DNA of 64,000 nt, taken from contig NZ_CP019239.1 of assembly GCF_001955715.1 (NCBI RefSeq), forward strand, positions 1,922,001 through 1,986,000. The letters are read 5' to 3'. The notes under the pieces are model-generated. The model saw only the letters and a program-made list of their open reading frames with translations. It did not search any database and was not told the DNA's origin. The translations under genes were made by a program, and so were the position numbers. Shown here one piece after another: positions 51 to 12,078 of the stretch (positions within the stretch are counted from its first letter, which is position 1; each line of letters opens with the position of its first letter). The DNA comes from Rhodoferax saidenbachensis (GTDB lineage: Bacteria > Pseudomonadota > Gammaproteobacteria > Burkholderiales > Burkholderiaceae_C).

Positions 51-1121
51 ATGCAAACCCGAAAAATCCCCGCCACCATCATCACTGGCTTCCTGGGCAG
101 CGGCAAGACCACGCTGTTGCGCCACCTGCTGGCCAACGCGCAAGGCCGCCGCATTGCCGTCATCGTCAACGAGTTTGGCGAACTGGGCATCGACGGCGAA
201 CTGCTGCGCGGCTGCGGCATTGGCTGCGACGAGAACGGCGAAGAAAACGGACAGTTGTACGAACTGGCCAACGGCTGCCTGTGCTGCACCGTGCAAGAGG
301 AATTTGCGCCTGTGATGGAGCAGTTGGCCAAGCGTCGCGACCAGATCGACCACCTGATCATTGAAACCTCGGGCCTGGCGCTGCCGAAGCCACTGGTGCA
401 GGCTTTTCAGTGGCCCGCGCTGCGCAACACCTTTACCGTGGACGCCGTGGTGACCGTGGTGGATGCGCCCGCGGTGGCGGCCGGTGACTTTGCCGACGAC
501 CCGGTGGCCGTGGACGCCCAGCGCCGAGCCGACGACAACCTGGACCATGACTCCCCGTTGCACGAGCTGTTTGAAGACCAGTTGGCCACGGCCGACCTGG
601 TGATCGTGCACAAGACCGATGGCGTGACGCCTGCCCAGCTTGTGGAGGTGGAAGCCGCTATCCGTGCCGAGACGCTGCCTGGCGTGAAGCTGGTGCATGC
701 GCAGCATGGCCGCATCGACATGGGTGTGCTGCTGGGCCTGGAGCGCGCAGTGGAAGACCAGATCGACCAGCGCAAGACCCACCACGACGAGGAAGAAGAC
801 CACGACCACGACGCCTTTGACTCGGTGCAGGTAGCGCTGGATGTGACCAACCGAGAAGGCCTGCTGGCCGCCCTGCAGGGCGTGGTGGCGCGCCACGAGA
901 TTTACCGCGCCAAGGGCTTTGTGGCCTTGCCCGGTGTGGCCATGCGCCTGGTGGTGCAGGGCGTGGGCACCCGTTTTGACAGTTACTTTGATCGTCCGTG
1001 GCGCGCCGATGAAGTGCGCCAATCGCGCCTGGTGTTGATCGGCTCGGAACTGAATGCGGCTGTGTTGCAGGCTGAGCTGAGCGCGGCACTGGCCGCATCT
1101 ACAACGCCCGTCGCGGCTTGA
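51..1121 (+). CDS. cobW: CobW-type GTPase, cobalamin cluster metallochaperone
   Basis: This 356-residue protein is a G3E-family P-loop GTPase; CobW is thought to deliver cobalt to the CobN chelatase. Walker A GFLGSGKTT lies at residues 13-21, the metal-binding GCLCC motif at 75-79, ETSG near 106 and an HKTD base-recognition motif at 187-190. A His/Asp/Glu-rich stretch (244-254) separates the GTPase domain from the CobW C-terminal domain and could bind metal. The ATG at 51 has AAGGA about 8 bases upstream. It is the first gene of the cobalamin cluster visible here. The G3E family also includes zinc and urease/hydrogenase chaperones, but context favours CobW. Confidence 0.93.
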   Translation: MQTRKIPATIITGFLGSGKTTLLRHLLANAQGRRIAVIVNEFGELGIDGELLRGCGIGCDENGEENGQLYELANGCLCCTVQEEFAPVMEQLAKRRDQIDHLIIETSGLALPKPLVQAFQWPALRNTFTVDAVVTVVDAPAVAAGDFADDPVAVDAQRRADDNLDHDSPLHELFEDQLATADLVIVHKTDGVTPAQLVEVEAAIRAETLPGVKLVHAQHGRIDMGVLLGLERAVEDQIDQRKTHHDEEEDHDHDAFDSVQVALDVTNREGLLAALQGVVARHEIYRAKGFVALPGVAMRLVVQGVGTRFDSYFDRPWRADEVRQSRLVLIGSELNAAVLQAELSAALAASTTPVAA

Positions 1122-1295
1122 TTTCAAATGCACGCTGATGGTTTAGGCCCGTGGCGGGCACAGGCCGACGGGGCACTCTGCTCCGCGGCTGTCCTCCGCC
1201 CTGCGGGCTCCCCCTTTATGCCGCTGCGCAGAGCGCCCCGCCGACCTGCGCGAGATAAGTGGTTGGCTGTTCAACCTTACCTTGTGAAGTAAAAA
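1122..1295. repeat. Intergenic imperfect palindrome between cobW and cobN
   Basis: This 174-base gap has no gene. It contains a long imperfect inverted repeat: arm 1162-1181 pairs with arm 1228-1247 (17 of 20 positions, and the three mismatches are transitions that allow G-U pairing in RNA). The GC-rich intervening sequence runs to about 1227. No T-tract follows either arm, so it is not an obvious intrinsic terminator. I see no cobalamin riboswitch motif here. It looks like a dispersed palindromic element; a role between cobW and cobN is unknown. Confidence 0.5.
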
Positions 1296-4200
1296 ATGCA
1301 TTTGCTCTCTACCCGCCCCGGCGGCCACGTTGAAGACGGAGGCCAGGGCGTGGTGCGCGTGGAGCAGACGCCGGGCGACATCGTGGTGCTGAGCGCGGCG
1401 GACACCACGCTGTCTTTGTTGGCCGATGCTGCGGGTGCATTGTCCGATGGCTTCCCCACGGTGCGTTTGGCCAACCTGATGTGGCTGCGCCAGCCTGCGT
1501 CGGCCGACATGTACGTGGACGAGGTGCTGCAGCATGCGCGCGTGATCGTCATCGACCACCTGGGCGCGGCGAGTGACTGGGCCTATGTGGTGGAGCGGGT
1601 GCGTGAACTGGCACGCGAACGCGGCCAGTGGCTGGCCCTGTTTTCGGGCGACGCCAGCGAAGACCTGCAGCTGCTGCTGCGCAGCACCGCCGCGCACGAA
1701 GACTGCCGCCAGCTTTGGCGCAGCCTGCGTGAAGGCGGCCGCGACAATGCGCGCGGCTTTTTTGAACTCATAGGCCACGCCGCCTTTGGCCTGGGCGCAC
1801 GCCCCGCGCCGCCGGCCGTGCTGCCACCGGCCATGGTTTACACGCCGCTGGCCGCCCCCGCGTGGCAGGCCGGTGCGCCCGTGGCGCTGCTGGTGTTCTA
1901 CCGCGCCCACGTTCAGGCTGGCAACACGGCGGTGTTTGACGCCATGCTGGCCGCTCTCAGCGCCGAAGGCCTCAATACCGTGGCTGTTGCGGTGGACTCG
2001 CTGAAGAACCCGGCCAGCCTTGCGCTGTTGCAGTCATTAGCCGTGCAGCGCAGCGTGGGCGTGGTGCTCAACGCCACGAGTTTTGCGATCACTGCGCTGG
2101 ACGGTGACGACGTCGACAGCGTGGACGGTGCGCAGATGGCGCCGCTGGCGGGTGATGCACCGGTACTGCAGCTCATCACCGCCGGTTGCGCGCAAGAGCA
2201 GTGGCAGGCCGACCCGCACGGCCTGGCGCCGCGCGACCTGGCCATGCAGGTGGTGCTGCCCGAGGTGGACGGCCGCATCGGCACGCGCGCCATCAGCTTC
2301 AAGGGCCTGGCCTGGCGCTGCGAGCGCACCGAGGTGGACGTGGTGCGTTACCAGCCCGAGCCTGAACGCATGGCCTTTGTGGCCGAACTGGCGCGCCGCT
2401 GGTGTGTGTTGCGTGACAAGCCCAATGCCGACAAACGCGTGGCGTTGATCCTCGCCAACTACCCCAACGATGACTCCCGCCTGGCCAACGGCGTGGGCCT
2501 GGACACACCCGCTTCCACCGTGGCCCTGCTGCAGGCTATGCAGGGCGCCGGTTACACCACCGGCGCCTTGCCCGAGGACAGTGATGCGTTGATGGCCGCG
2601 CTGATAGCCGGTGTCACCAACAACCTGGACGCCAACGACATGCGTCCTGCCGGCCAGAGCCTGGCCATGGCCGACTACCTAGCGGACTTCAACCGCCTGG
2701 ACGCCGCCAGCCGCGACGCGGTGAATACGCTGTGGGGCTTGCCTGAGCAAGACCCCATGGTGCGCAGCGGACGCTTCATGGTGTCGGGCCAGCGCTATGG
2801 CAACCTGTTCGTCGGCAACCAGCCCGCGCGCGGGCGCGACCTGGATTTGGTCGCCACGTACCACGATGCCGATCTGGTGCCCACGCACAACTACCTTGCG
2901 TTTTACTTCTGGCTGCGCCGCCAGTTTGCGGTGGACGCCGTGGTGCACGTGGGCAAACACGGCAACCTGGAGTGGCTGCCCGGCAAAAGCGTGGCGCTGG
3001 GCGCCCACTGCTGGCCCGACGCCATCCTGGGCCCGTTGCCGCACCTTTACCCGTTTATCGTCAACGACCCCGGCGAGGGCAGCCAGGCCAAGCGCCGCAC
3101 GCAGGCCGTCATCATCGACCACTTGATGCCAGCTCTGACGCGCGCCGAGACCTACGGCCCGCTGCAAAAGCTGGAGCGGCGGATGGACGAGTACTACGAG
3201 GCCATCTCCCTGGACCCGCGCCGCGCCCAGCGCCTGCGCGTAGATATTCTGGACCGGGTGTTGACCGAGAACCTGCACACCGACCTGGGCTTTGCCAAAC
3301 CCGCAGACGATGCCGGCCGCGAGGCGCTGCTGCAGCGGCTGGACGCCTACCTGTGCGAGATCAAGGAATCCCAAATCCGCGATGGTCTGCACATCCTGGG
3401 TACATCCCCGCAGGGCCGCCAGCAAATCGATACGCTGGTGGCGCTGGCGCGGTTTCCCGGTGGCACGGCTGCCGGGCAGCGCAGCCTGCTGGAGGCACTG
3501 GCAAAAGACTTGCAACTGGATGGTGTAGATGGATTTAGCGCACTGAGCCCGGAGTGGGCGGCGCCCTGGAATGGTCCGTTCCCTGCGGTGTTGCAGGGTG
3601 TTAGCACCGAGGCTTGGCGCCATGCGGGGCATACGCGGGAGCGACTTGAGTTGCTGGCGCGGCAACTGGTGCAGGACTATGTCATTGCGTCTGAAATGAT
3701 TCCCCCTGTTCCCTTCAATACTGTTCGCGTTGAGCCCACCTCCGTTCGGGCTGAGCCTGTCGAAGCCCTTCGACAAGCTCAGGGCGAACGGGGGTTTTAT
3801 CAGCCCGAACGGGGTATTTTTCCGCTCGATAACCCGGAGCTGTGGCCGCACACCGCCCCCGTATTGGACCGCATGCGCACCGTGCTGCGCCCGCGCCTGG
3901 ACGCCTGTGGCCCGCAAGAAATTTTGCAGTGCCTGCGTGGCCTCTCAGGAAAATTTGTCCCCGCCGGCCCCAGCGGCGCACCGTCGCGCGGCCGCCCCGA
4001 TGTACTGCCCACCGGCCGCAACTTCTATTCCGTGGACACGCGCGCCGTGCCCACGCAAACCGCCTACGCCATGGGCGCCGCGGCGGCCGAGCGTGTGATC
4101 GAGCGACACCTGCAAGACCATGGCAGCATGCCGGGCCAGGTGGGCCTGTCGGTCTGGGGCACCAGCACCATGCGCACCGGCGGCGAGGACATTGCCCAGG

Positions 4201-5243
4201 CGTTTGCGCTCTTGGGCGTGCGGCCCAAGTGGGCCGATGGCAGCAGCCGGGTGGTGGACATCGAGGTGCTGCCCATGAGTCTGAAGGGCCGGCCGCGCGT
4301 GGATGTGACGCTGCGCGTCTCAGGCTTCTTCCGCGATGCCTTCCCGAATGTGATCGACCTGTTTGATACGGCCGTGCGCACCGTGGCCGCGATCAGCGAA
4401 GAGGACGAGCCTGACGAGGTGAACCCGATCCGCGCCCGTGTGCGGCGTGAGGCGGCCGATGCACAGGCCAAGGGCCTGAGCGCCGAGGCGGCGGAACGCG
4501 AAGCCACTTGGCGCGTGTTTGGCCCACGGCCCGGCGGTTACGGCGCCGGCCTGCAGGAGCTGATGGCCAGCGGCCGCTGGACGGATGGCAACGATCTGGC
4601 ACAGGCCTATCTGCGTGCGGGGGCCTTTGCCTACGGGCAGGGCGAACACGGTGTGGCAGCGCGTGGCAGCTTTGAGCAGCGTATCGCTGGGCTGGACGCG
4701 GTGCTGCACAACCAGGACAACCGCGAGCACGATGTGCTCGATTCGGACGACTACTACCAGTTCCAGGGCGGCATGGCGGTGGCCGTCCAGGCCCTGACCG
4801 GCGAGGCGGCTGCGCTGTACCACGGCGACTTCAGCGTGCCCGGCGCGCCGCGCATCCGCACGCTGGGTGAAGAGGTGGCGCGCGTGGTGCGCTCGCGCGC
4901 CGTCAACCCCAAGTGGCTGGAGGGCGTGCGCCGCCATGGCTACAAGGGCGCGTTTGAGATGGCCGCCACGGTGGACTACCTGTTTGCGTTTGACGCCACC
5001 ACCGGCGTGGTGGGCGACCACCAGTACGCGCTGGTGGCCGATGCCTATTTGCACGACGACACGAACCGCGCGTTTTTGCAAGAGCACAACCCCGGCGCGC
5101 TGCGCAGTATTGGCGAGCGCCTGCTCGAAGCCATGCAGCGTGGCTTGTGGGAGGCGCCGGGCGACCAGCGCGAACGCATTGAAGACCATTTGCTGGCGCT
5201 GGAGCGCCGCGTGGAAGAACACGGAGAAGGACCTTTGGTATGA
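1296..5243 (+). CDS. cobN: Cobaltochelatase large subunit CobN
   Basis: CobN (1315 residues) is the large subunit of the ATP-dependent chelatase that inserts cobalt into hydrogenobyrinic acid a,c-diamide in the aerobic B12 route. The N-terminus MHLLSTRPGGHV, the internal HVGKHGNLEWLPGK segment and the LPTGRNFYSVD segment are typical of CobN/BchH. It is slightly longer than most homologues; about 33 residues near 809-842, including RAEPVEALRQAQGERG, are encoded by a palindromic repeat (3742-3791) inserted in frame just before the conserved LDNPELWPH region. The stop overlaps the next start (ATGA at 5240), so CobN and its AAA+ partner are translationally coupled. Confidence 0.96.
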   Translation: MHLLSTRPGGHVEDGGQGVVRVEQTPGDIVVLSAADTTLSLLADAAGALSDGFPTVRLANLMWLRQPASADMYVDEVLQHARVIVIDHLGAASDWAYVVERVRELARERGQWLALFSGDASEDLQLLLRSTAAHEDCRQLWRSLREGGRDNARGFFELIGHAAFGLGARPAPPAVLPPAMVYTPLAAPAWQAGAPVALLVFYRAHVQAGNTAVFDAMLAALSAEGLNTVAVAVDSLKNPASLALLQSLAVQRSVGVVLNATSFAITALDGDDVDSVDGAQMAPLAGDAPVLQLITAGCAQEQWQADPHGLAPRDLAMQVVLPEVDGRIGTRAISFKGLAWRCERTEVDVVRYQPEPERMAFVAELARRWCVLRDKPNADKRVALILANYPNDDSRLANGVGLDTPASTVALLQAMQGAGYTTGALPEDSDALMAALIAGVTNNLDANDMRPAGQSLAMADYLADFNRLDAASRDAVNTLWGLPEQDPMVRSGRFMVSGQRYGNLFVGNQPARGRDLDLVATYHDADLVPTHNYLAFYFWLRRQFAVDAVVHVGKHGNLEWLPGKSVALGAHCWPDAILGPLPHLYPFIVNDPGEGSQAKRRTQAVIIDHLMPALTRAETYGPLQKLERRMDEYYEAISLDPRRAQRLRVDILDRVLTENLHTDLGFAKPADDAGREALLQRLDAYLCEIKESQIRDGLHILGTSPQGRQQIDTLVALARFPGGTAAGQRSLLEALAKDLQLDGVDGFSALSPEWAAPWNGPFPAVLQGVSTEAWRHAGHTRERLELLARQLVQDYVIASEMIPPVPFNTVRVEPTSVRAEPVEALRQAQGERGFYQPERGIFPLDNPELWPHTAPVLDRMRTVLRPRLDACGPQEILQCLRGLSGKFVPAGPSGAPSRGRPDVLPTGRNFYSVDTRAVPTQTAYAMGAAAAERVIERHLQDHGSMPGQVGLSVWGTSTMRTGGEDIAQAFALLGVRPKWADGSSRVVDIEVLPMSLKGRPRVDVTLRVSGFFRDAFPNVIDLFDTAVRTVAAISEEDEPDEVNPIRARVRREAADAQAKGLSAEAAEREATWRVFGPRPGGYGAGLQELMASGRWTDGNDLAQAYLRAGAFAYGQGEHGVAARGSFEQRIAGLDAVLHNQDNREHDVLDSDDYYQFQGGMAVAVQALTGEAAALYHGDFSVPGAPRIRTLGEEVARVVRSRAVNPKWLEGVRRHGYKGAFEMAATVDYLFAFDATTGVVGDHQYALVADAYLHDDTNRAFLQEHNPGALRSIGERLLEAMQRGLWEAPGDQRERIEDHLLALERRVEEHGEGPLV
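3720..3820. repeat. Palindromic repeat (type B) inside cobN
   Basis: Positions 3742-3791 form a near-perfect palindrome with the core GAGCCTGTCGAAGCCCTTCG and flanks CCGTTCGGGC / GCGAACGG. Partial copies of the flank motif occur just before (from 3722) and after (3801-3813). The reading frame of cobN passes through without a stop. The same element occurs at 35442-35527 (in mfd), 46344-46449 and 63356-63439. Confidence 0.85.
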
Positions 5244-6307
5244 CGACTTCTACAAACAATATTTCTCTGGAACCCGCCACGCGCGCGGCTTTTCCCTTTA
5301 CCGCGTTGGTGGGCCAGCCGCAATTGCAGCGGGCGCTGCAGCTCGCCGCCATTGACCCCGGCATTGGCGGGGTGTTGATCAGCGGCCCACGCGGCACGGC
5401 CAAGTCCACCGCGGCGCGTGCACTAGCGGCGCTCTTGCCTGGCGCGCCGTTTGTGACATTGCCGCTGGCTGCCAGCCTGGAGCAACTGGTGGGCACGCTG
5501 AATGTGGAAGACGTGCTGCGCGACGGCCAGGTGCGCCTGGCGCCCGGTCTGGTGGCGCGTGCGCATGGCGGTGTGCTTTATGTGGATGAAGTTAATTTGC
5601 TGCCTGACGCGCTGGTGGATGCACTGCTGGACGTGGCCGCCAGCGGCGTGAACACGGTGGAGCGCGATGGTATTTCGCAGCAACACGCCGCACGTTTTGT
5701 GTTGGTGGGCACCATGAACCCGGAGGAGGGCGAGCTGCGCCCGCAGCTGCTGGACCGATTTGGCCTGTCCGTGGCGCTGGCCAACCCGGTGGATGCCGCA
5801 CAGCGCACCGCCATCCTGCGTGCGCGCCTGGGTTTTGATGAAAACCCCGCAGCCCTGGCGGACCAACATGCAGAAGAACAACGTGCCTTGAGCTCTGCCC
5901 TGGTAGCAGCCCGAGCCGCATTGCCGCGTTTGACTTGGTCTGACGAAGTTTTGAATCACGCGGCAGCCTGCGCGATTGAAGCCGGTGTGGACGGCATGCG
6001 CGCCGATCTGGTGATGCTGCGTGCCGCGCGTGCGTTGGCGGCACTGGAAGGGCGCAGCGAAGTGACCGTGGCGCACGTGGACGCCGTGGCCGAACTCGCG
6101 CTGGCACACCGCCGACCCGAAGGTGGTGCTGCGCAGCCGCCAAGCACCACCAGCGCACCGCAGCAGCCCCAACAAAACCCACAGCGCCCGCAAGACCAGC
6201 AAACCGCTGCCCCTGCGCCCCAAGGCGACTGGGGCGCAATGCCCGCCCAGCCCGAAGGCACCACCAAGGTCCAAAAAATCGCCGGGTGGCCGCCAAAAAA
6301 AGCCTAG
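5240..6307 (+). CDS. ChlI/BchI-like AAA+ ATPase of the cobalt chelatase
   Basis: This 355-residue AAA+ protein resembles magnesium-chelatase subunit ChlI/BchI and would energise CobN. Walker A GPRGTAKST is at residues 49-57, Walker B GGVLYVDEVN near 110, sensor GTMNPEEG near 156, followed by the C-terminal lid. The last 60 residues are a Pro/Gln-rich linker of the sort that joins AAA+ and VWA domains in ChlD/BchD, then the ORF stops at TAG 6305-6307. The start is fused to the cobN stop (ATGA). The stop lies four bases after an A7 run, and the VWA domain continues in the -1 frame, so this ORF is probably both a stand-alone ChlI-like subunit and the first half of a frameshifted ChlD-like protein. 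Confidence 0.9.
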   Translation: MTTSTNNISLEPATRAAFPFTALVGQPQLQRALQLAAIDPGIGGVLISGPRGTAKSTAARALAALLPGAPFVTLPLAASLEQLVGTLNVEDVLRDGQVRLAPGLVARAHGGVLYVDEVNLLPDALVDALLDVAASGVNTVERDGISQQHAARFVLVGTMNPEEGELRPQLLDRFGLSVALANPVDAAQRTAILRARLGFDENPAALADQHAEEQRALSSALVAARAALPRLTWSDEVLNHAAACAIEAGVDGMRADLVMLRAARALAALEGRSEVTVAHVDAVAELALAHRRPEGGAAQPPSTTSAPQQPQQNPQRPQDQQTAAPAPQGDWGAMPAQPEGTTKVQKIAGWPPKKA

Positions 6308-6972
6308 GCCACCCCAGCCGCCGCCCGCGCAACGGGCCTGGCAGCTGGCGGTGGCCTCCACCCCAGACCTCTTCTACAACCACTGCGCCGGGCGCACGGC
6401 AGCGCAGTGCCTCCATTGCCTGGCTTCCCACCGTGGTGGCCAAAGGGCCGGCGCCCCTGCACCGCGAACATCTGCGTCGCCAGCCCGTGGCACTGCGTGC
6501 CGGTCGCCTGCACTGCATCGTGCTGGACACCTCGGGCTCCATGCGCCAGCGCGGCCGCCTCGCGCTGGCCAAGGGCCATGCGGCTTTCATGATTGAACAG
6601 GCCGCGCGCCAGGGCGACGATGTGGCTCTGCTGTGTTTTGGCGGGCAGGGCGTGGAGCTATTGCTGCCACCCGGCCGCGCGCGCGCCTCCGGTAGTCAGC
6701 GCCTGCGTCCGGTGGGTGGTGGTGGTGGCACGCCGCTGGCCGAGGCTTTGGCCCAGGCCGACCGCCTGTTGCAGCGCACGTTGCGAATCGGCGGTCCGAC
6801 CGAATGCTGGCTCTGGCTACTGACCGATGGCCGCACGTTGGAGCAACCGCAGGCGCCTCTGACGCCGCAGCACCTGGTCATCGTCGACTTTGACGACCCT
6901 AAAAAGAACCTGGGCCGCTGTGCCGCCTGGGCCACGCGCTGGGGCGCGGAGCACCAGCTGGCGCTGGCCTGA
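6286..6972 (+). CDS. VWA-domain (ChlD/BchD-like) chelatase part, -1 frame of the AAA+ gene
   Basis: The frame encodes a von Willebrand factor A domain with a MIDAS site: DTSGSM near residue 81 and the later conserved T in GGGTPLAEA. In Mg/Co chelatases the VWA domain of the D subunit docks the AAA+ ring on CobN. The only upstream start available is a GTG at 6286, with no Shine-Dalgarno at proper distance (AAGG at 6266 is about 17 bases away), and the first 60 residues are an uncharacteristic Pro/Arg-rich linker. I therefore think the domain is made mainly as a frameshift fusion 5240-6972 (AAA+, Pro-rich linker, VWA, about 575 residues), the normal ChlD architecture. If it is independent, the start remains uncertain. 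Confidence 0.85.
   Translation: MAAKKSLGHPSRRPRNGPGSWRWPPPQTSSTTTAPGARQRSASIAWLPTVVAKGPAPLHREHLRRQPVALRAGRLHCIVLDTSGSMRQRGRLALAKGHAAFMIEQAARQGDDVALLCFGGQGVELLLPPGRARASGSQRLRPVGGGGGTPLAEALAQADRLLQRTLRIGGPTECWLWLLTDGRTLEQPQAPLTPQHLVIVDFDDPKKNLGRCAAWATRWGAEHQLALA
6295..6356 (+). promoter_or_regulatory. Candidate -1 programmed frameshift signal (A7 slip site plus stem)
   Basis: A run of seven A (6295-6301) reads A-AAA-AAA in the frame of the upstream gene. Slipping back one base enters exactly the frame of the VWA gene and bypasses the TAG at 6305. After a five-base spacer a GC-rich structure starts: GGCCACC 6307-6313 pairs with GGTGGCC 6350-6356, CCAGC 6314-6318 with GCTGG 6344-6348, and an inner GCCCG/CGGGC hairpin lies at 6323-6337. 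Programmed frameshifting is known from chlD genes linked to cobN; the signal here is read directly but untested. Confidence 0.7.
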
Positions 6973-6995
6973 CCCATCCATTGAAAAATACATCC

Positions 6996-7391
6996 ATGTC
7001 CGATACCGAAATCATTGTCTGCACCACCTGCCGCCCGCCCGGCGCTTCACGCGAGCTGCCAGCCGAAGGCCTGGCCCTGTTCGAGGCTGTGCAGGACGCG
7101 CTGCTGAACTGCGAGCTGGACACCGGCGAGCACAAAGGCCTGCAGGTGCGCGGCCTGGCCTGCATGAGCGGCTGCTCGCGCGCTTGCACTGTCACACTGC
7201 AAGCCCAGGGCAAGTTCACTTATTACTTTGGCGATCTGGCGCCCGATGCCGAGACTGCCGCCCAGGTGATTGCCTGCGCGCAGTTGCATAAGCACAGCGC
7301 CGACGGCAACCTGGCCCGTAACAGCCGGCCCGAACGCCTGCGCAGCGGCATCCTGGCGCGGCTGCCACCGATCCTGGCCAGTACCGCCTGA
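6996..7391 (+). CDS. DUF1636 metal/Fe-S-binding protein
   Basis: The 131-residue product belongs to the DUF1636 family, which has a thioredoxin-like ferredoxin look. Cysteines C9 and C12 (CTTC), C39, and the CMSGCSRAC cluster C56/C60/C64 could hold a [2Fe-2S] cluster or metal. The ATG at 6996 is preferred over the in-frame TTG at 6981 because homologues begin near MSDT. It sits 23 bases after the VWA gene and just before cbtB-cbtA, inside the cobalamin cluster, a context in which this family recurs in Proteobacteria. A redox or cobalt-handling role is inference only. Confidence 0.8.
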   Translation: MSDTEIIVCTTCRPPGASRELPAEGLALFEAVQDALLNCELDTGEHKGLQVRGLACMSGCSRACTVTLQAQGKFTYYFGDLAPDAETAAQVIACAQLHKHSADGNLARNSRPERLRSGILARLPPILASTA

Positions 7392-7443
7392 GCGTGGATT
7401 TTCACGCCCCGATTTTTTCACCCGTAACCCAAAGGAGATAACG

Positions 7444-7635
7444 ATGACCGATCCGACGACTTTGACCCACAGCCCCTCTGAGGGCGCCCATCTGACCCTG
7501 TCCCTGGTGGGCCCGCTGCTGGCGGCTGCCGCACTTGGCCTGGTGGTGCTTTACGGCGTAGCCTTTGCCGAGAGCCCGCTGGCGCACAACGCGGCGCATG
7601 ACGTGCGCCACATCACCGTCAAACCTTGCCACTAA
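7444..7635 (+). CDS. cbtB: Cobalt transporter subunit CbtB
   Basis: This 63-residue protein has a single membrane segment (about residues 17-38) and a C-terminal His-rich tail with NAAHDVRH and the ending PCH, the hallmark of CbtB, the small subunit of a predicted cobalt transporter usually controlled by B12. The ATG at 7444 has a very strong Shine-Dalgarno (AAAGGAGA at 7431-7438). It is followed directly by cbtA. No riboswitch fits in the 52 bases upstream, so regulation probably comes from the operon promoter. Confidence 0.92.
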   Translation: MTDPTTLTHSPSEGAHLTLSLVGPLLAAAALGLVVLYGVAFAESPLAHNAAHDVRHITVKPCH

Positions 7636-7658
7636 GTCGGCAATTCAAGGAGATTCCC

Positions 7659-8504
7659 ATGGTTTTCCAACGATTGATCTGGTCGGCGCTGGTCGCCGCC
7701 GTGGTGGTGGGCAGTGTGCAAACCGGCGTGCAACGCTGGCAGGCAGCGCCATTGATTTTGGCGGCCGAGGTGTACGAAGAGCAGAAGGCAGAGGCACCTG
7801 CACCGGCGGAAGCGGCTGTTCCGGCAAATGCGGTTGCCGCCCACGTGCATGCCGATGCGGCAGCTGTGCACGAACATGAGCACGACGCCGCAAATGCGTG
7901 GGAGCCCGAAAACGGTGCCGAGCGCATTGGCTGGACCTGGGTGGCCAACACCCTGCACGCCTTCAGCATGGCGTTGCTGGTGTTCGCGGTGATGGGTGTG
8001 TGGCTTTATCAGCGCGGTGGTGTCGTCGCGACCCTGCGCCTGGCGGGCTGGGTGGCTGCTGCTGGTTGGCTCAGCTTTCATTTCTGGCCTTCGCTGGGTC
8101 TGCACGCGGAAGTGCCCGGCATGGAGGCCGCGCCCTTGCACGCGCGCCAGGTCTGGTGGGTGCTGGCGGTGGGCAGTGCGGTCTCTGCCTGCGCCGTAGC
8201 CGGTTTTGCCCGTGGATCCTGGCGTTGGCTGGTCGCTGTTGCGCTGTTGGCCGTGCCGTTTGTGGTGGGGGCACCGCAGTTGCAGGGTGATGCGCTGGCC
8301 GGCTTTGGCCCCGAGGCGCATGCCGCGCTGGAGAAACTGGGCACGCAGTTCATCTGGGCCACCACCTGGGTGTCGTTGTCGTTCTGGGTCAGCTTGGGCC
8401 TGGTGGGCGGCTTGGCGTTTCAGCGCTGGGTACGTCCAGCCCTGCTTGCGGTGCTGGAGAGCGCGGGCGCAGGTACTGCGGGCACGGCCAACGCCGCCTC
8501 GTAA
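7659..8504 (+). CDS. cbtA: Cobalt transporter subunit CbtA
   Basis: CbtA (281 residues) is the membrane subunit of the CbtAB cobalt transporter. An N-terminal membrane helix (MVFQRLIWSALVAAVVVGS) is followed by an Ala/Glu-rich, His-rich loop (HVHAD...HEHEHD, about residues 56-75) that may collect metal, then four or five more membrane helices with conserved Trp, Leu and His residues. The start ATG at 7659 follows AAGGAGA. The gene is coupled to cbtB, and 18 bases separate it from cobD. Confidence 0.92.
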   Translation: MVFQRLIWSALVAAVVVGSVQTGVQRWQAAPLILAAEVYEEQKAEAPAPAEAAVPANAVAAHVHADAAAVHEHEHDAANAWEPENGAERIGWTWVANTLHAFSMALLVFAVMGVWLYQRGGVVATLRLAGWVAAAGWLSFHFWPSLGLHAEVPGMEAAPLHARQVWWVLAVGSAVSACAVAGFARGSWRWLVAVALLAVPFVVGAPQLQGDALAGFGPEAHAALEKLGTQFIWATTWVSLSFWVSLGLVGGLAFQRWVRPALLAVLESAGAGTAGTANAAS

Positions 8505-8522
8505 AACACGGCAGCATCGGAT

Positions 8523-9497
8523 ATGACCCCGTGGGCCCTTTCCATGGCAGTGGCCCTGCCAGTCGCGCTGGCGGTTGACCGCTGGTGGGGCGAGCCGCCG
8601 GTGCGCCTGCACCCGGTGGTGTGGATGGGGCACGCACTGGGCGGGGCGGGGCGCTGGGTGCAGCGCCACACCGTGCAGCAGCCGGACACCGTGGATTACA
8701 AGGCTTTTTGGCTTGCAGCCCTTATGTGGTGTGCGCAAGCAGCTATTGTTTTGGTAGCGGCTGGCGCGCTGCAGTGGCTGTTGCATGGTTTGCCATGGTG
8801 GTGTGCCGGGCTGTTGCTGGGCCTGCTGCTGAAACCCCTGCTGGCCTGGACCATGCTCAAGAGCGAGGTGCAGGCGGTGGAAGACGCATTGGGCCAGTCG
8901 CTGGCTGACGGGCGTGCGCGCCTGGCCTGGCTGGTGAGCCGCGACGTGGCGCAGCTCACCGACACCCAGGTGCGTGAGAGCGCCATCGAGTCGCTGGCCG
9001 AGAACCTCAATGATTCCGTGGTGGCGCCGATTTTCTGGTTTCTGTTGCTGGGCCTGCCGGGCGCGGCGCTGTACCGCTTTGCCAATACGGCCGATGCCAT
9101 GTGGGGCTATCGCGGACTCTACAAAGGGCAGAACTGGGAATGGGCGGGCAAGTGGGCCGCGCGGGCCGACGATGTGCTCAGTTTTATACCTGCACGCATC
9201 ACGGCGGTGCTGTTGCTGCTGGCCGGTGGTACCAAAGGTTGGGCACGGGCGTGCCGTTTGCCGGCCGAAGCGAGGCAAACCCCGTCGCCCAACAGCGGCT
9301 GGCCCATGGCGGCCATGGCGCTGAATCTGGACGTGGCGCTGCGCAAGCCCGGCGTTTATGTGCTCAATGCAACGGGGCGTACTGCGCTGGCCGCTGACAC
9401 GGCATCCGCTCTGGTTTATGCGTCCAAAGCGGTTCTAGCCCTTGTGGTGCTTGCGCAAGCAGCTATGGTTTTGATAGTGATTGGAGGTGCGGTGTGA
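8523..9497 (+). CDS. cobD: Adenosylcobinamide-phosphate synthase (CbiB/CobD)
   Basis: This 324-residue integral membrane protein attaches the aminopropanol arm (or its phosphate) to adenosylcobyric acid. The N-terminus DRWWGEPPVRLHPVVWMG and the ESLAENLNDSVVAP and ARADDVL motifs are typical of CbiB/CobD. Two membrane segments (ALMWCAQAAIVLVAAG and LALVVLAQAAMVLIVIGG) are encoded by reverse copies of the dispersed type A repeat, visible as patches of A/T-rich codons. The end overlaps the cobC start by four bases (GTGA). Confidence 0.93.
   Translation: MTPWALSMAVALPVALAVDRWWGEPPVRLHPVVWMGHALGGAGRWVQRHTVQQPDTVDYKAFWLAALMWCAQAAIVLVAAGALQWLLHGLPWWCAGLLLGLLLKPLLAWTMLKSEVQAVEDALGQSLADGRARLAWLVSRDVAQLTDTQVRESAIESLAENLNDSVVAPIFWFLLLGLPGAALYRFANTADAMWGYRGLYKGQNWEWAGKWAARADDVLSFIPARITAVLLLLAGGTKGWARACRLPAEARQTPSPNSGWPMAAMALNLDVALRKPGVYVLNATGRTALAADTASALVYASKAVLALVVLAQAAMVLIVIGGAV
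8707..8757 (-). repeat. Type A dispersed repeat in cobD, first copy
   Basis: The reverse strand reads GCTACC...ATAGCTGCTTGCGCA...ATAAGGGCTGCAAGCC, matching the intergenic type A copies (for example 31030-31086). In the cobD frame it encodes a hydrophobic stretch. Codons here (CTT, GTT, GTA, GCA) contrast with the GC-ending codons around it. Confidence 0.8.
9431..9478 (-). repeat. Type A dispersed repeat in cobD, second copy
   Basis: The reverse strand reads ACTATCAAAACCATAGCTGC, then TTGCGCA and ACAAGGGCTAGAACC, a good match to the type A repeat. It encodes the last membrane segment of CobD and ends only a few codons before the stop. Confidence 0.8.
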
Positions 9498-10486
9498 AAG
9501 CTGTACCCCGTATCCATGGCGGGCCGGACGCGCTGGGCGCGCCGTTGTATGACTTTTCCACCAACAGCAACGCCTGCGGCCCGTGCCCGCAGGTGCTGGC
9601 TGCTGTGCAGGCGGCCGATGCCACGCGTTATCCCGATGCTGGCTACACAGCAGTGCGTGCCGCGTTGGCAGTTTTCCACGGCGTGGCGGCCTGGCGCATT
9701 GTGTTGGCGGGCAGTGCCAGCGAGTTTATTTTCCGCATCACGGCCTGGGCTGTGCAGCAAGGCGCGCGCAGCGTGTGCCTGCCTGCGCATGCCTATGGCG
9801 ATTACGCCCATGCGGCGCGGCCCTGGGGTTTGGATGCGCTGACGGATGTTGATGCCGCGGCGCTGGTCTGGGCGTGTGAGCCGTCCAGCCCGCTGGGCCA
9901 GGCGCATGGCCAGTGGCCTGCAGAGTTAAGCCATGTGGTGCTGGACAGCGCCTACGCGCCGCTGCGCCTGAGTGGCGCATCCAGCCTGAACGATTCGCAG
10001 CGTGATGCGCTGTGGCAACTGTTTTCCCCCAACAAGGCACTGGGCCTGACCGGCGTGCGCGCGGCTTATGCGATTGCACCGCACGATGCCGCGCAGGCCG
10101 TGCAGCAGCTCGACGCGCTGGCACCCTCGTGGGTGCTGGGCGCACACGGCGTGGCGATGCTGCTGGCCTGGACGCAGTCCGACACCCAAGCCTGGTTGCA
10201 GCAAAGCCTGCACACCTTGCGTGGCTGGAAGCGGCGGCAGGTGGAGTTGCTGCAAGGTGCGGGCTGGGAAGTATTGCCTAGCGACACGCCGTTTTTCTGC
10301 GCTCGCCCCCCGGTAGATGCGGTTGCCCTGTGTGCCCGGCTGCGCACGCAAGGCATCAAGCTGCGCGACACCACTTCGTTTGGCCTGCCGGGCCAGGTGC
10401 GCCTGGGTGTGCTGTCACCGCAGGCGCAAGATGCGTTGCTAGCTGCTCTGACAAAGAACACCACTCTGACCATGGAAACCACCTGA
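9494..10486 (+). CDS. cobC: Threonine-phosphate decarboxylase (CobC, PLP fold-type I)
   Basis: The 330-residue enzyme belongs to the class I/II aminotransferase fold and is expected to make (R)-1-amino-2-propanol phosphate from threonine phosphate for the B12 arm. The substrate-pocket N-terminus HGGPD near residue 6 and the PLP lysine K181 in SPNKALGLTG are visible. The start is GTG at 9494, within the cobD stop. A histidinol-phosphate aminotransferase is the main alternative, but the position between cobD and cobQ decides for CobC. The stop overlaps the cobQ ATG (TGATG). Confidence 0.9.
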   Translation: MKAVPRIHGGPDALGAPLYDFSTNSNACGPCPQVLAAVQAADATRYPDAGYTAVRAALAVFHGVAAWRIVLAGSASEFIFRITAWAVQQGARSVCLPAHAYGDYAHAARPWGLDALTDVDAAALVWACEPSSPLGQAHGQWPAELSHVVLDSAYAPLRLSGASSLNDSQRDALWQLFSPNKALGLTGVRAAYAIAPHDAAQAVQQLDALAPSWVLGAHGVAMLLAWTQSDTQAWLQQSLHTLRGWKRRQVELLQGAGWEVLPSDTPFFCARPPVDAVALCARLRTQGIKLRDTTSFGLPGQVRLGVLSPQAQDALLAALTKNTTLTMETT

Positions 10487-12078
10487 TGACCGCCAAATGT
10501 GTGATGGTGCTGGGCACGACCAGCGGCGCGGGCAAAAGCTGGCTCACAACCGCACTGTGCCGCTACTACGCGCGCCAAGGCTTGAAAGTCGCGCCGTTCA
10601 AGGCGCAGAACATGAGCAACAACGCGCGGGTGGTGGCGTCTGAAAACGGCCAGGGCGAGATTGGCTCCGCCCAATACTTCCAGGCCCTGGCCGCCAATGC
10701 CGTACCCGATGTGCGCATGAACCCGCTGTTGTTGAAGCCTGAGCGCGACACGCATAGCCAGGTGGTGCTGATGGGGCAGGTGAGCGCGGAGCTCAGCGCC
10801 ATGCCATGGCGTGGCCGCAGTGCCCACGTCTGGCCACAGATCGCCGCGGCGCTCGACGCATTGCGTGCTGAGAATGATGTGGTGGTGATAGAGGGCGCAG
10901 GTTCTCCGGCCGAGATCAACCTGCATGCCAGTGACATCGTCAACATGCGCGTGGCGCTGCACGCCAATGCAGCATGTCTGCTGGTGACCGACATTGACCG
11001 TGGCGGTGCGTTTGCGCACCTTTACGGGACCTGGGCGTTGTTGCCCAAAGAAGAGCGCGCACTGATCAAAGGCTTTGTGCTCAACAAGTTCCGTGGCGAT
11101 GCGGCGCTGCTGGCGCCCGCGCCGCAGATGCTGCAGGACTTGACCGGCATTCCCACGGTGGCCACGCTGCCGATGTGGTGGCAGCACGGTTTGCCCGAGG
11201 AAGACGGTGTGTTTGATGACCGCAGTGTGACCAAGGGCGCGGTGAATCTGACGGTGGCTGTGATTGCCTACCCACGCATCAGCAACCTCGATGAATTCCA
11301 GCCACTGAAGAACATTCCGGGTCTGCGTTTGCAGTGGGTGCGCAGTCCTTCCGAGCTGGCGGGTTTGAAGGCTACCGACTGGATCATCCTGCCGGGCTCC
11401 AAACACACCAGTGGCGATCTGGCCTGGCTGCGTTCTCAAGGGCTGGACGCGGCCATTGCACGCCATGCGGAGCAGGGTGGTGCGGTGTTGGGCGTGTGTG
11501 GGGGTTTGCAGATGCTGGGTGAGGCATTGATTGATCCGCATGGCATTGACGGTAATGCACCGGGCCTGGGACTGTTGCCGCTGGTGACCGTGTTTGACCA
11601 GGATAAGACGGTGCGGCATACGCAGACCCGTTTTGGTCTCGGCGTTTCTTCTGGCGTCAGTGGGCCCCAAGCCGGGGGGCTCATGGTGCCAAATGCGCAC
11701 AAATCGCCCCCCGACTTGGGGCCCACTGACGCTGGCCAACGGGCTGGTGGTCCTGCAAGTCCTTGGGCATCCTTGGCGGGCGTATCGGTCAGTGGCTATG
11801 AGATTCACCACGGCCAGACCCAACAACACGTGGCTATGGCCGCTGCGGGTGATGTGGCCCACGCTGTTTTGCCCGATGGCCTGGGCTGGTGCAACGCCTC
11901 TGGCAATGTGCTGGGCTTGTACCTGCACGGCATGTTTGAAGACGCTGCGGTGTTGCAAGCCCTGTTTGGCGCGCAGCTCGGCGGCGCCGTGCCCACGCTG
12001 GAGACCGTGTTTGACGGGCTGGCCGACTACATCGCAACGCACTTTGCCCCCGGTGTGTTGCAAGATTTTGTGAACTGA
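10486..12078 (+). CDS. cobQ: Cobyric acid synthase CobQ, with palindromic insert
   Basis: CobQ amidates four carboxyl groups of adenosylcobyrinic acid a,c-diamide. An N-terminal P-loop (TTSGAGKS, residues 11-18) and KAQNMSNN, and a C-terminal class I glutaminase domain with nucleophile C338 (GVCGGLQMLG) and the GYEIHHGQT motif are present. At 530 residues it is about 40 longer than usual. The extra stretch (about 388-425, between QTRFG and VSGYEIHHG) is encoded by a 79-base near-perfect hairpin at 11654-11732. The start overlaps the cobC stop. Confidence 0.94.
   Translation: MTAKCVMVLGTTSGAGKSWLTTALCRYYARQGLKVAPFKAQNMSNNARVVASENGQGEIGSAQYFQALAANAVPDVRMNPLLLKPERDTHSQVVLMGQVSAELSAMPWRGRSAHVWPQIAAALDALRAENDVVVIEGAGSPAEINLHASDIVNMRVALHANAACLLVTDIDRGGAFAHLYGTWALLPKEERALIKGFVLNKFRGDAALLAPAPQMLQDLTGIPTVATLPMWWQHGLPEEDGVFDDRSVTKGAVNLTVAVIAYPRISNLDEFQPLKNIPGLRLQWVRSPSELAGLKATDWIILPGSKHTSGDLAWLRSQGLDAAIARHAEQGGAVLGVCGGLQMLGEALIDPHGIDGNAPGLGLLPLVTVFDQDKTVRHTQTRFGLGVSSGVSGPQAGGLMVPNAHKSPPDLGPTDAGQRAGGPASPWASLAGVSVSGYEIHHGQTQQHVAMAAAGDVAHAVLPDGLGWCNASGNVLGLYLHGMFEDAAVLQALFGAQLGGAVPTLETVFDGLADYIATHFAPGVLQDFVN
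11654..11732. repeat. Large hairpin element inside cobQ
   Basis: Arm 11654-11680 is the reverse complement of 11706-11732 with one mismatch in 27 bases; the loop is 25 bases. Each arm has the motif TGGGCCCCAAG followed by a G6 or preceded by a C6 run. The cobQ frame reads through. It is unrelated in sequence to types A and B. Confidence 0.88.

Follow-up and report, generated by a model that had tools for sequence, protein, structure and literature searches.

A conserved fs-chlD gene beside cobN in Rhodoferax saidenbachensis and its predicted -1 frameshift

How does a cell with CobN, the large cobaltochelatase subunit, obtain two ATPase subunits when it seems to have no cobS/cobT and no separate chlI? 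The question is raised by a stretch of 64,000 nucleotides (nt) from Rhodoferax saidenbachensis (contig NZ_CP019239.1, positions 1,922,001 to 1,986,000), which we call the window and in whose coordinates the features below are given. Directly downstream of cobN, an open reading frame (ORF) for an AAA+ protein overlaps a second frame that encodes a VWA domain. We take the locus to be the fs-chlD gene of an aerobic-type cobalamin operon, in which -1 programmed frameshifting would supply both a ChlI-like and a ChlD-like partner for CobN (we put the probability at about 0.93). As such, one gene would be enough for two subunits, and their ratio would be set by ribosome slippage. In annotation, genes of this kind are easily taken for two genes or for broken ones. 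Antonov 2020 (doi 10.1093/molbev/msaa081) is said to be the founding paper on fs-chlD genes with programmed frameshifting, and the window locus is a well-conserved new example of that published behaviour.

The AAA+/VWA overlap and its predicted products

The AAA+ ORF (5240..6307, plus strand) is ChlI-like, ends in a Pro/Gln-rich linker and, read in the 0 frame, gives a product of 355 amino acids (aa). It matches the Pfam families AAA_lid_2, Mg_chelatase and AAA_5, as well as the NCBIfam models TIGR02442 and TIGR02030 (each below the full-length cut-off). By sequence, its nearest solved structures are ChlI/BchI (PDB search, E ~1e-77). The VWA frame (6286..6972, plus strand, stop TGA at 6970-6972) lies in -1 relative to the AAA+ ORF and corresponds to the C-terminal part of ChlD. 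It matches Pfam VWA_2, covers the C-terminal parts of TIGR02442 and TIGR02031, and finds its nearest solved structure by sequence in PDB 2x31, the 60-kDa Mg-chelatase subunit. One and the same model, TIGR02442, is split over the two frames (positions 87-340 in the AAA+ half, 456-584 in the VWA half). Neither half alone reaches the cut-off of the full-length model, and together they form the two-ORF arrangement of fs-chlD.

At the join, the 0-frame codons read CCA AAA AAA GCC TAG. A run of seven As (A_AAA_AAA, 6295..6301, plus strand; hereafter A7) thus sits in the canonical X_XXY_YYZ phase, and the 0-frame stop TAG follows at 6305..6307 on the same strand. The -1 codon overlapping this stop is CTA, which is not a start codon. 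The first ATG, GTG or TTG of the VWA frame is the GTG at 6286, and no Shine-Dalgarno (SD)-like 4-mer stands at start-site spacing from it. An earlier sequence-only reading had described an AAA+ frame that stops shortly after A7, a VWA domain that carries on in the -1 frame as far as 6972, and, as the only start of that frame, a GTG without SD; we find all three as described. A further run of six As (6273-6278), 16 nt before A7, appears by eye to be out of slippery phase and is missing from a close relative (L002).

In the mechanism that we favour, most ribosomes would pass A_AAA_AAA in frame and stop at TAG, releasing the 355-aa product as a ChlI/CobS-like AAA+ subunit. Some ribosomes, delayed by a stem-loop downstream, would slip back one base, both lysyl-tRNAs re-pairing on AAA AAA, and so enter the VWA frame. 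By arithmetic on the coordinates, their product would be 577 aa long and would read ...WPPKKSLGHP across the join, giving a ChlD/CobT-like AAA+-linker-VWA subunit. The short and long products would then assemble as an ATPase motor that works with CobN in cobalt insertion. This proposal of one mRNA for a ChlI-like and a ChlD-like subunit was already made in the sequence-only reading, and it gains support from the conservation of A7, phase and stem and from the genome searches, which found no other such subunit.

The frameshift itself has been measured by others in E. coli on relatives of this gene (PMC3711429, PMC9227772), and we carry it over to the window by analogy. The text of PMC3711429 describes a magnesium-chelatase cluster in which members from Pseudomonas, Burkholderia, Delftia, Herpetosiphon and archaea have -1 frameshifts. 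It gives efficiencies for cassettes of the gene family of 10% for seven As (A_AAA_AAA), 40% for nine and 63% for eleven. In the text of PMC5009743, A_AAA_AAR is under strong purifying selection with strong structure potential, and that of PMC9227772 sets out a two-subunit model with cobN. The earlier reading called programmed frameshifting in cobN-linked chlD known, and it is, to judge by the texts of these three papers. Like the genes described in the texts of PMC3711429 and PMC9227772, the window locus has AAA+ and VWA ORFs that overlap in the -1 phase, an A-rich slippery site with a structure downstream of it, cobN as a neighbour and no separate small subunit that we could find. Neither Rhodoferax nor Comamonadaceae is named in the main texts of these two papers.

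Conservation of the slip site among relatives

We searched the VWA part against 299 genomes, an even draw from the larger family, and obtained matches in 86. The 30 best loci (window included) and four more make up the 34 family loci examined. With 19 further weak-hit regions, loci from 53 of the 86 matching genomes were viewed (30 + 4 + 19). The remaining 33, all weak hits, were left out, as were second hits within one genome. Seven or eight As stand in phase in 32 of the 34 family loci (29 of the first 30 plus L031-L033). Counting C_CCA_AAA together with A_AAA_AAA, 33 of the 34 have an in-phase heptamer followed by VWA in the -1 frame.

The single C_CCA_AAA locus (L030; genome G296, 2166-2178, minus strand) continues with GCATGA, and so combines a canonical non-homopolymeric heptamer with an ATGA overlap. 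It could also reinitiate, judging by these two motifs. When its genus was checked for further cases, 6 of 21 genomes matched at all and G296 alone strongly, so that the replacement rests on one genome. One of the 34 loci, L034, is apparently a bchI-bchD pair, given its long VWA frame (652 aa) and the lack of an A run, and was set aside. The 19 weak-hit regions were considered as in-frame relatives of fs-chlD and rejected: 17 are bchI-bchD-like, with two AAA+ hits followed by VWA and no cobN, and two contain VWA only.

A scan of named genomes extends the picture beyond this family. The best 80 of 103 relatives come from Variovorax, Rhodoferax, Burkholderia, Paraburkholderia, Caballeronia, Thauera, Azoarcus, Pseudomonas and other genera. 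Three of these 80 lack the AAA+ part (the match lies at a contig end), which leaves 77. The slip is in phase in 67 of the 77: A_AAA_AAA in 45 and A_AAA_AAG in 21 by script, and A7 in L059 by eye. The other 10 have no slip, either because the gene is a single frame (L053, L098, L104) or because the slippery run is absent (L101, L103, L105, L106, L109, L113, L114). Again among these best 80, cobN accompanies 63 of the 67 slip-bearing loci and, of the 10 others, L053 only. For three of the slip-bearing loci without cobN (L045, L059, L093), the contigs contain no sequence upstream of the AAA+ part. Two single-frame ChlD-like fusions, L098 (Larsenimonas) and L104 (Marinomonas), have no cobN within the fetched flanks. 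L059, from the Rhodoferax metagenome-assembled genome (MAG) RYN_565, has an early in-frame TAG in its AAA+ part, probably an assembly error or decay; its slip site and VWA frame look intact.

Pooling both surveys gave 97 distinct slip loci (99 minus two duplicates, with L059 left out since the script began at its internal stop). In 94 of the 97, the slip ends exactly 3 nt before the stop. The other three (L031, L032, L094) keep A7 and the stem, and their 0-frame stop lies 24 nt after the slip, inside the stem-loop region. As in fs-chlD genes, a conserved in-phase A-rich heptamer is found just before the 0-frame stop. The letters around it stand out from the gene's own codon usage. The wobble base before the first AAA is A in 96 of 97 loci, whereas only 7.4% of 31,453 background codons have A at this position. 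For the 33 family loci (window included) the background, counted over 11,715 codons upstream, is just 7.0%. Of the 97 loci, 96 use AAA as the first slip codon, and lysine elsewhere in the AAA+ part is encoded by 204 AAG and 81 AAA. No other A7 occurs in the 35,178 nt of AAA+ coding sequence of the 33 family loci. L013, from a genome of the window's genus, and Rhodoferax bucti (L046) are identical in the 26 bases preceding the slip. Among the observations that would speak against it, the sequence-only reading had named loss of A7 or stem in close relatives that keep both ORFs separate. The outcome is in its favour: A7, the -1 phase and the stem are kept in the family loci examined, in other Burkholderiales, in Rhodocyclales and in Pseudomonas.

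This conservation bears on the simplest alternative, that of a sequencing error or pseudogene in which one lost A splits an ordinary single-frame chlD. One added A would indeed bring VWA into frame, and homopolymers are error-prone. Yet the identical phase recurs in independent assemblies of many genera, no stop falls within either matched frame, and the ratio of non-synonymous to synonymous substitution (dN/dS) is low on both sides of the join. Between the window and L002 it is 0.111 for AAA+ and 0.114 for VWA, and in three other pairs 0.165-0.176 and 0.192-0.292, respectively, which indicates that both halves are under purifying selection. Conservation thus refutes this alternative, to which we attach a practically negligible probability.

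A second alternative holds that the two proteins are separate, with VWA translated alone by internal initiation or by stop-start reinitiation. The window does have its GTG at 6286. Moreover, the -1 codon that overlaps the stop reads ATG in three of the 97 loci (L004, L010, L030), GTG in two and TTG in two, and the CTG found there in 74 is a near-cognate start at which rare reinitiation may take place. Against this, 16 loci, the window among them, have CTA at that place. In 66 of 97, no ATG, GTG or TTG of the VWA frame lies closer than 60 nt to the slip, and an SD-linked start is absent from -90 to +150 in 90 of 97. Separate translation would also leave the conservation of A7 and stem unexplained. 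As far as these sequences tell, internal initiation is no conserved option, and we regard separate translation of VWA as very improbable.

Elements around the slip site

As expected for an fs-chlD gene, a structure is predicted downstream of the slip and its position is conserved. The GC-rich stem that had been noted at 6307-6356 folds as a putative stimulatory stem-loop at 6306..6357 (plus strand), with -41.3 kcal/mol and a z-score of -4.25. None of 200 shuffles is as stable, and none of 176 non-overlapping windows of the same locus matches it. The conserved base pairs begin at 6308, 6 nt after the slip, and the 3' arm occupies 6348-6355. Among the 33 family loci, nine are beaten by no control window in minimum free energy (MFE). 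Ranked against windows of the same gene, 66 of all 97 belong to the most stable 10%, and the median z is -1.8.

Conservation of the pairing was assessed by scanning for 8-nt complementary arms, with control positions, in place of an alignment-based consensus. The scan selects the 3' arm that matches best, so the scores are informative only when set against those at control positions: the best score peaks at +6 after the slip, at 7.48 of 8 (baseline 5.73, standard deviation 0.12), and 85 of 97 loci score at least 7 there, against 10.8% of 8149 control positions. Ungapped arms of this length probably mis-register some stems (L028, L029). The paired bases covary. Among 50 distinct arm pairs, the fourth pair of the stem is A-T (19), C-G (12), T-A (11) or G-C (6). 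In the family loci (23 distinct arm pairs), 171 of 184 cells are paired; with 3' arms swapped between loci, the mean was 138 (maximum 156, 2000 shuffles).

Upstream of the slip, relatives show an SD-like element. The 9-nt windows with the strongest complementarity to the 3' end of 16S rRNA start between 19 and 15 nt before the slip. At this peak, -6 kcal/mol is reached by 25-31% of loci, against 2.6% of control windows. Similarly, 39 of 97 loci contain GGAG, GAGG or AGGA between -24 and -5, compared to 10.6% of control windows. The element is written in codons that are rare elsewhere in the AAA+ part: at codon -15, glycine is GGA in 20 of 24 cases and never GGC, and 14 of 18 arginines are AGG. 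Taking five codons together, AGG makes up 16 of 41 arginines (background 47 of 2444, 1.9%) and GGA 22 of 66 glycines (background 83 of 2535, 3.3%), with Fisher p values of ~2e-16 and ~1e-15 that overstate the certainty because the loci share ancestry. The element is absent from most Burkholderia, Paraburkholderia and fluorescent-type Pseudomonas rows. In the window, the best 9-mer is ccgggtggc (6282..6290, plus strand), which begins 13 nt before the slip, contains GGGTGG and no SD 4-mer, and pairs weakly (-5.9 kcal/mol).

These elements recall dnaX (gamma/tau), also an AAA+ gene with an A_AAA_AAG-type site and a downstream hairpin. The dnaX type of signal further has an SD-like element about 10 nt upstream of the slip; an element of this type is enriched in part of the relatives here, and the window shows a weak match (-5.9 kcal/mol). 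Besides being another gene, dnaX differs in that its frameshift product is the short one (according to the text of PMC3711429), whereas here it is the long one. Compared to published fs-chlD, the fixed 6-nt spacing, the covariation of the arms and the SD-like element are quantified here and do not appear in the texts of the papers examined. For the SD-like element, this covers the texts of PMC3711429, PMC5009743 and PMC9227772 and a literature search, which gave no paper; Antonov 2020 or supplements may contain it. The natural exceptions to the pattern likewise go beyond these texts.

The same elements help to decide between ribosome and polymerase. In transcriptional slippage, RNA polymerase would add an A in the A7 run, and a subset of mRNAs would encode the fusion in one frame. 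The run is homopolymeric, with eight As in five of the 97 loci. According to the text of PMC3711429, efficiencies in the gene family climb with run length, and Thermus dnaX employs nine As for such slippage; the same text places polymerase slippage at runs of more than seven As. Only six As are present in 20 of the 97 loci (as A_AAA_AAG) and four in the single C_CCA_AAA; the loci keep the phase for tRNA slippage rather than a certain length of run. Polymerase slippage is not known to involve a stem at a constant 6 nt or an SD-like element spaced as for a ribosome. Phase-keeping letter changes, stem spacing and upstream element together argue for tandem tRNA slippage on the ribosome rather than for polymerase slippage, to which we give a small chance.

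Several points weigh against programmed frameshifting as set out here. An efficiency of 10% for A7 in E. coli (text of PMC3711429) is modest. By MFE alone, 31 of 97 loci do not rank among the most stable 10% of windows from the same gene, and L004, L009 and L010 are unremarkable among the family loci, so that stability alone is not striking in every copy. A MAFFT alignment with RNAalifold gave no consensus stem, in our opinion because the arms lie at varying distances, and the arm scan takes the best-matching 3' arm, which inflates pair counts. Two loci do not fit the pattern. L068, a Comamonadaceae MAG, keeps the slip (A_AAA_AAG) and has no cobN in its 6.8-kb contig despite ~1.4 kb upstream of AAA+; by eye, the ORF before is cobalamin-pathway methyltransferase-like and the one after CobW-like. 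L053 (Acidovorax sp. SUPP3334) combines cobN with a single-frame fused chlD from which the slip site and the linker/pre-VWA stretch are gone. One search of its genome, of unstated completeness, found no other close chlI. Either a separate small subunit is perhaps not strictly needed, or the copy has decayed or is misassembled.

More tentatively, at a little under even odds, the frameshift ratio of beta- and gammaproteobacterial fs-chlD may be tuned lineage by lineage through a three-part dnaX-like cassette. Its parts would be a heptamer of variable letters and constant phase (A7, A6G, once C_CCA_AAA), a stem at +6 nt with covarying pairs and an SD-like element that clades have gained and lost. 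Nature provides variants on which the relation between frameshift efficiency and chelatase stoichiometry becomes testable, namely C_CCA_AAA, the L053 locus that has lost the slip, and copies with or without the SD-like element.

Operon context and the search for other subunits

Model searches of the genome found no match to CobS, none to CobT (TIGR01651, at E 0.001, so that nothing qualifies as CobT) and no second ChlI. As in published fs-chlD genomes, cobN is present and no separate small-subunit gene was found. Classical CobNST differs in this respect, although CobS and CobT fill the same role as ATPase partners of CobN (text of PMC9227772). The separate bchI/bchD or chlI/chlD of Mg-chelatase share the domain pairing with fs-chlD; unlike it, they are two genes with an AAA+ domain in each and no nearby cobN hit. 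Four other AAA+ hits occur in the genome, namely a MoxR-type ATPase, YifB and two sigma-54 activators. The MoxR-type ATPase scores 210 bits with Pfam AAA_3, and its best NCBIfam match, BchD-ChlD, just 48.6 bits against a cut-off of 499.6.

An Rfam scan of the whole 64 kb at the gathering threshold gave no match, neither to a catalogued frameshift element nor to a cobalamin riboswitch. cobN (1296..5243, plus strand) scores 1520 bits with TIGR02257, whose cut-off is 822, and the stop of cobN and the start of the AAA+ ORF overlap in ATGA (5240-5243). On the 3' side of the VWA frame follow a DUF1636 protein, CbtB, CbtA, CbiB/CobD, a CobC-like aminotransferase and CobQ. With cobN upstream and cobalamin genes downstream, the locus belongs to an aerobic-type cobalamin operon, which is compact and runs from 51 to 12078 in the order cobW, cobN, fs-chlD, DUF1636 protein, cbtB, cbtA, cbiB/cobD, cobC-like and cobQ.

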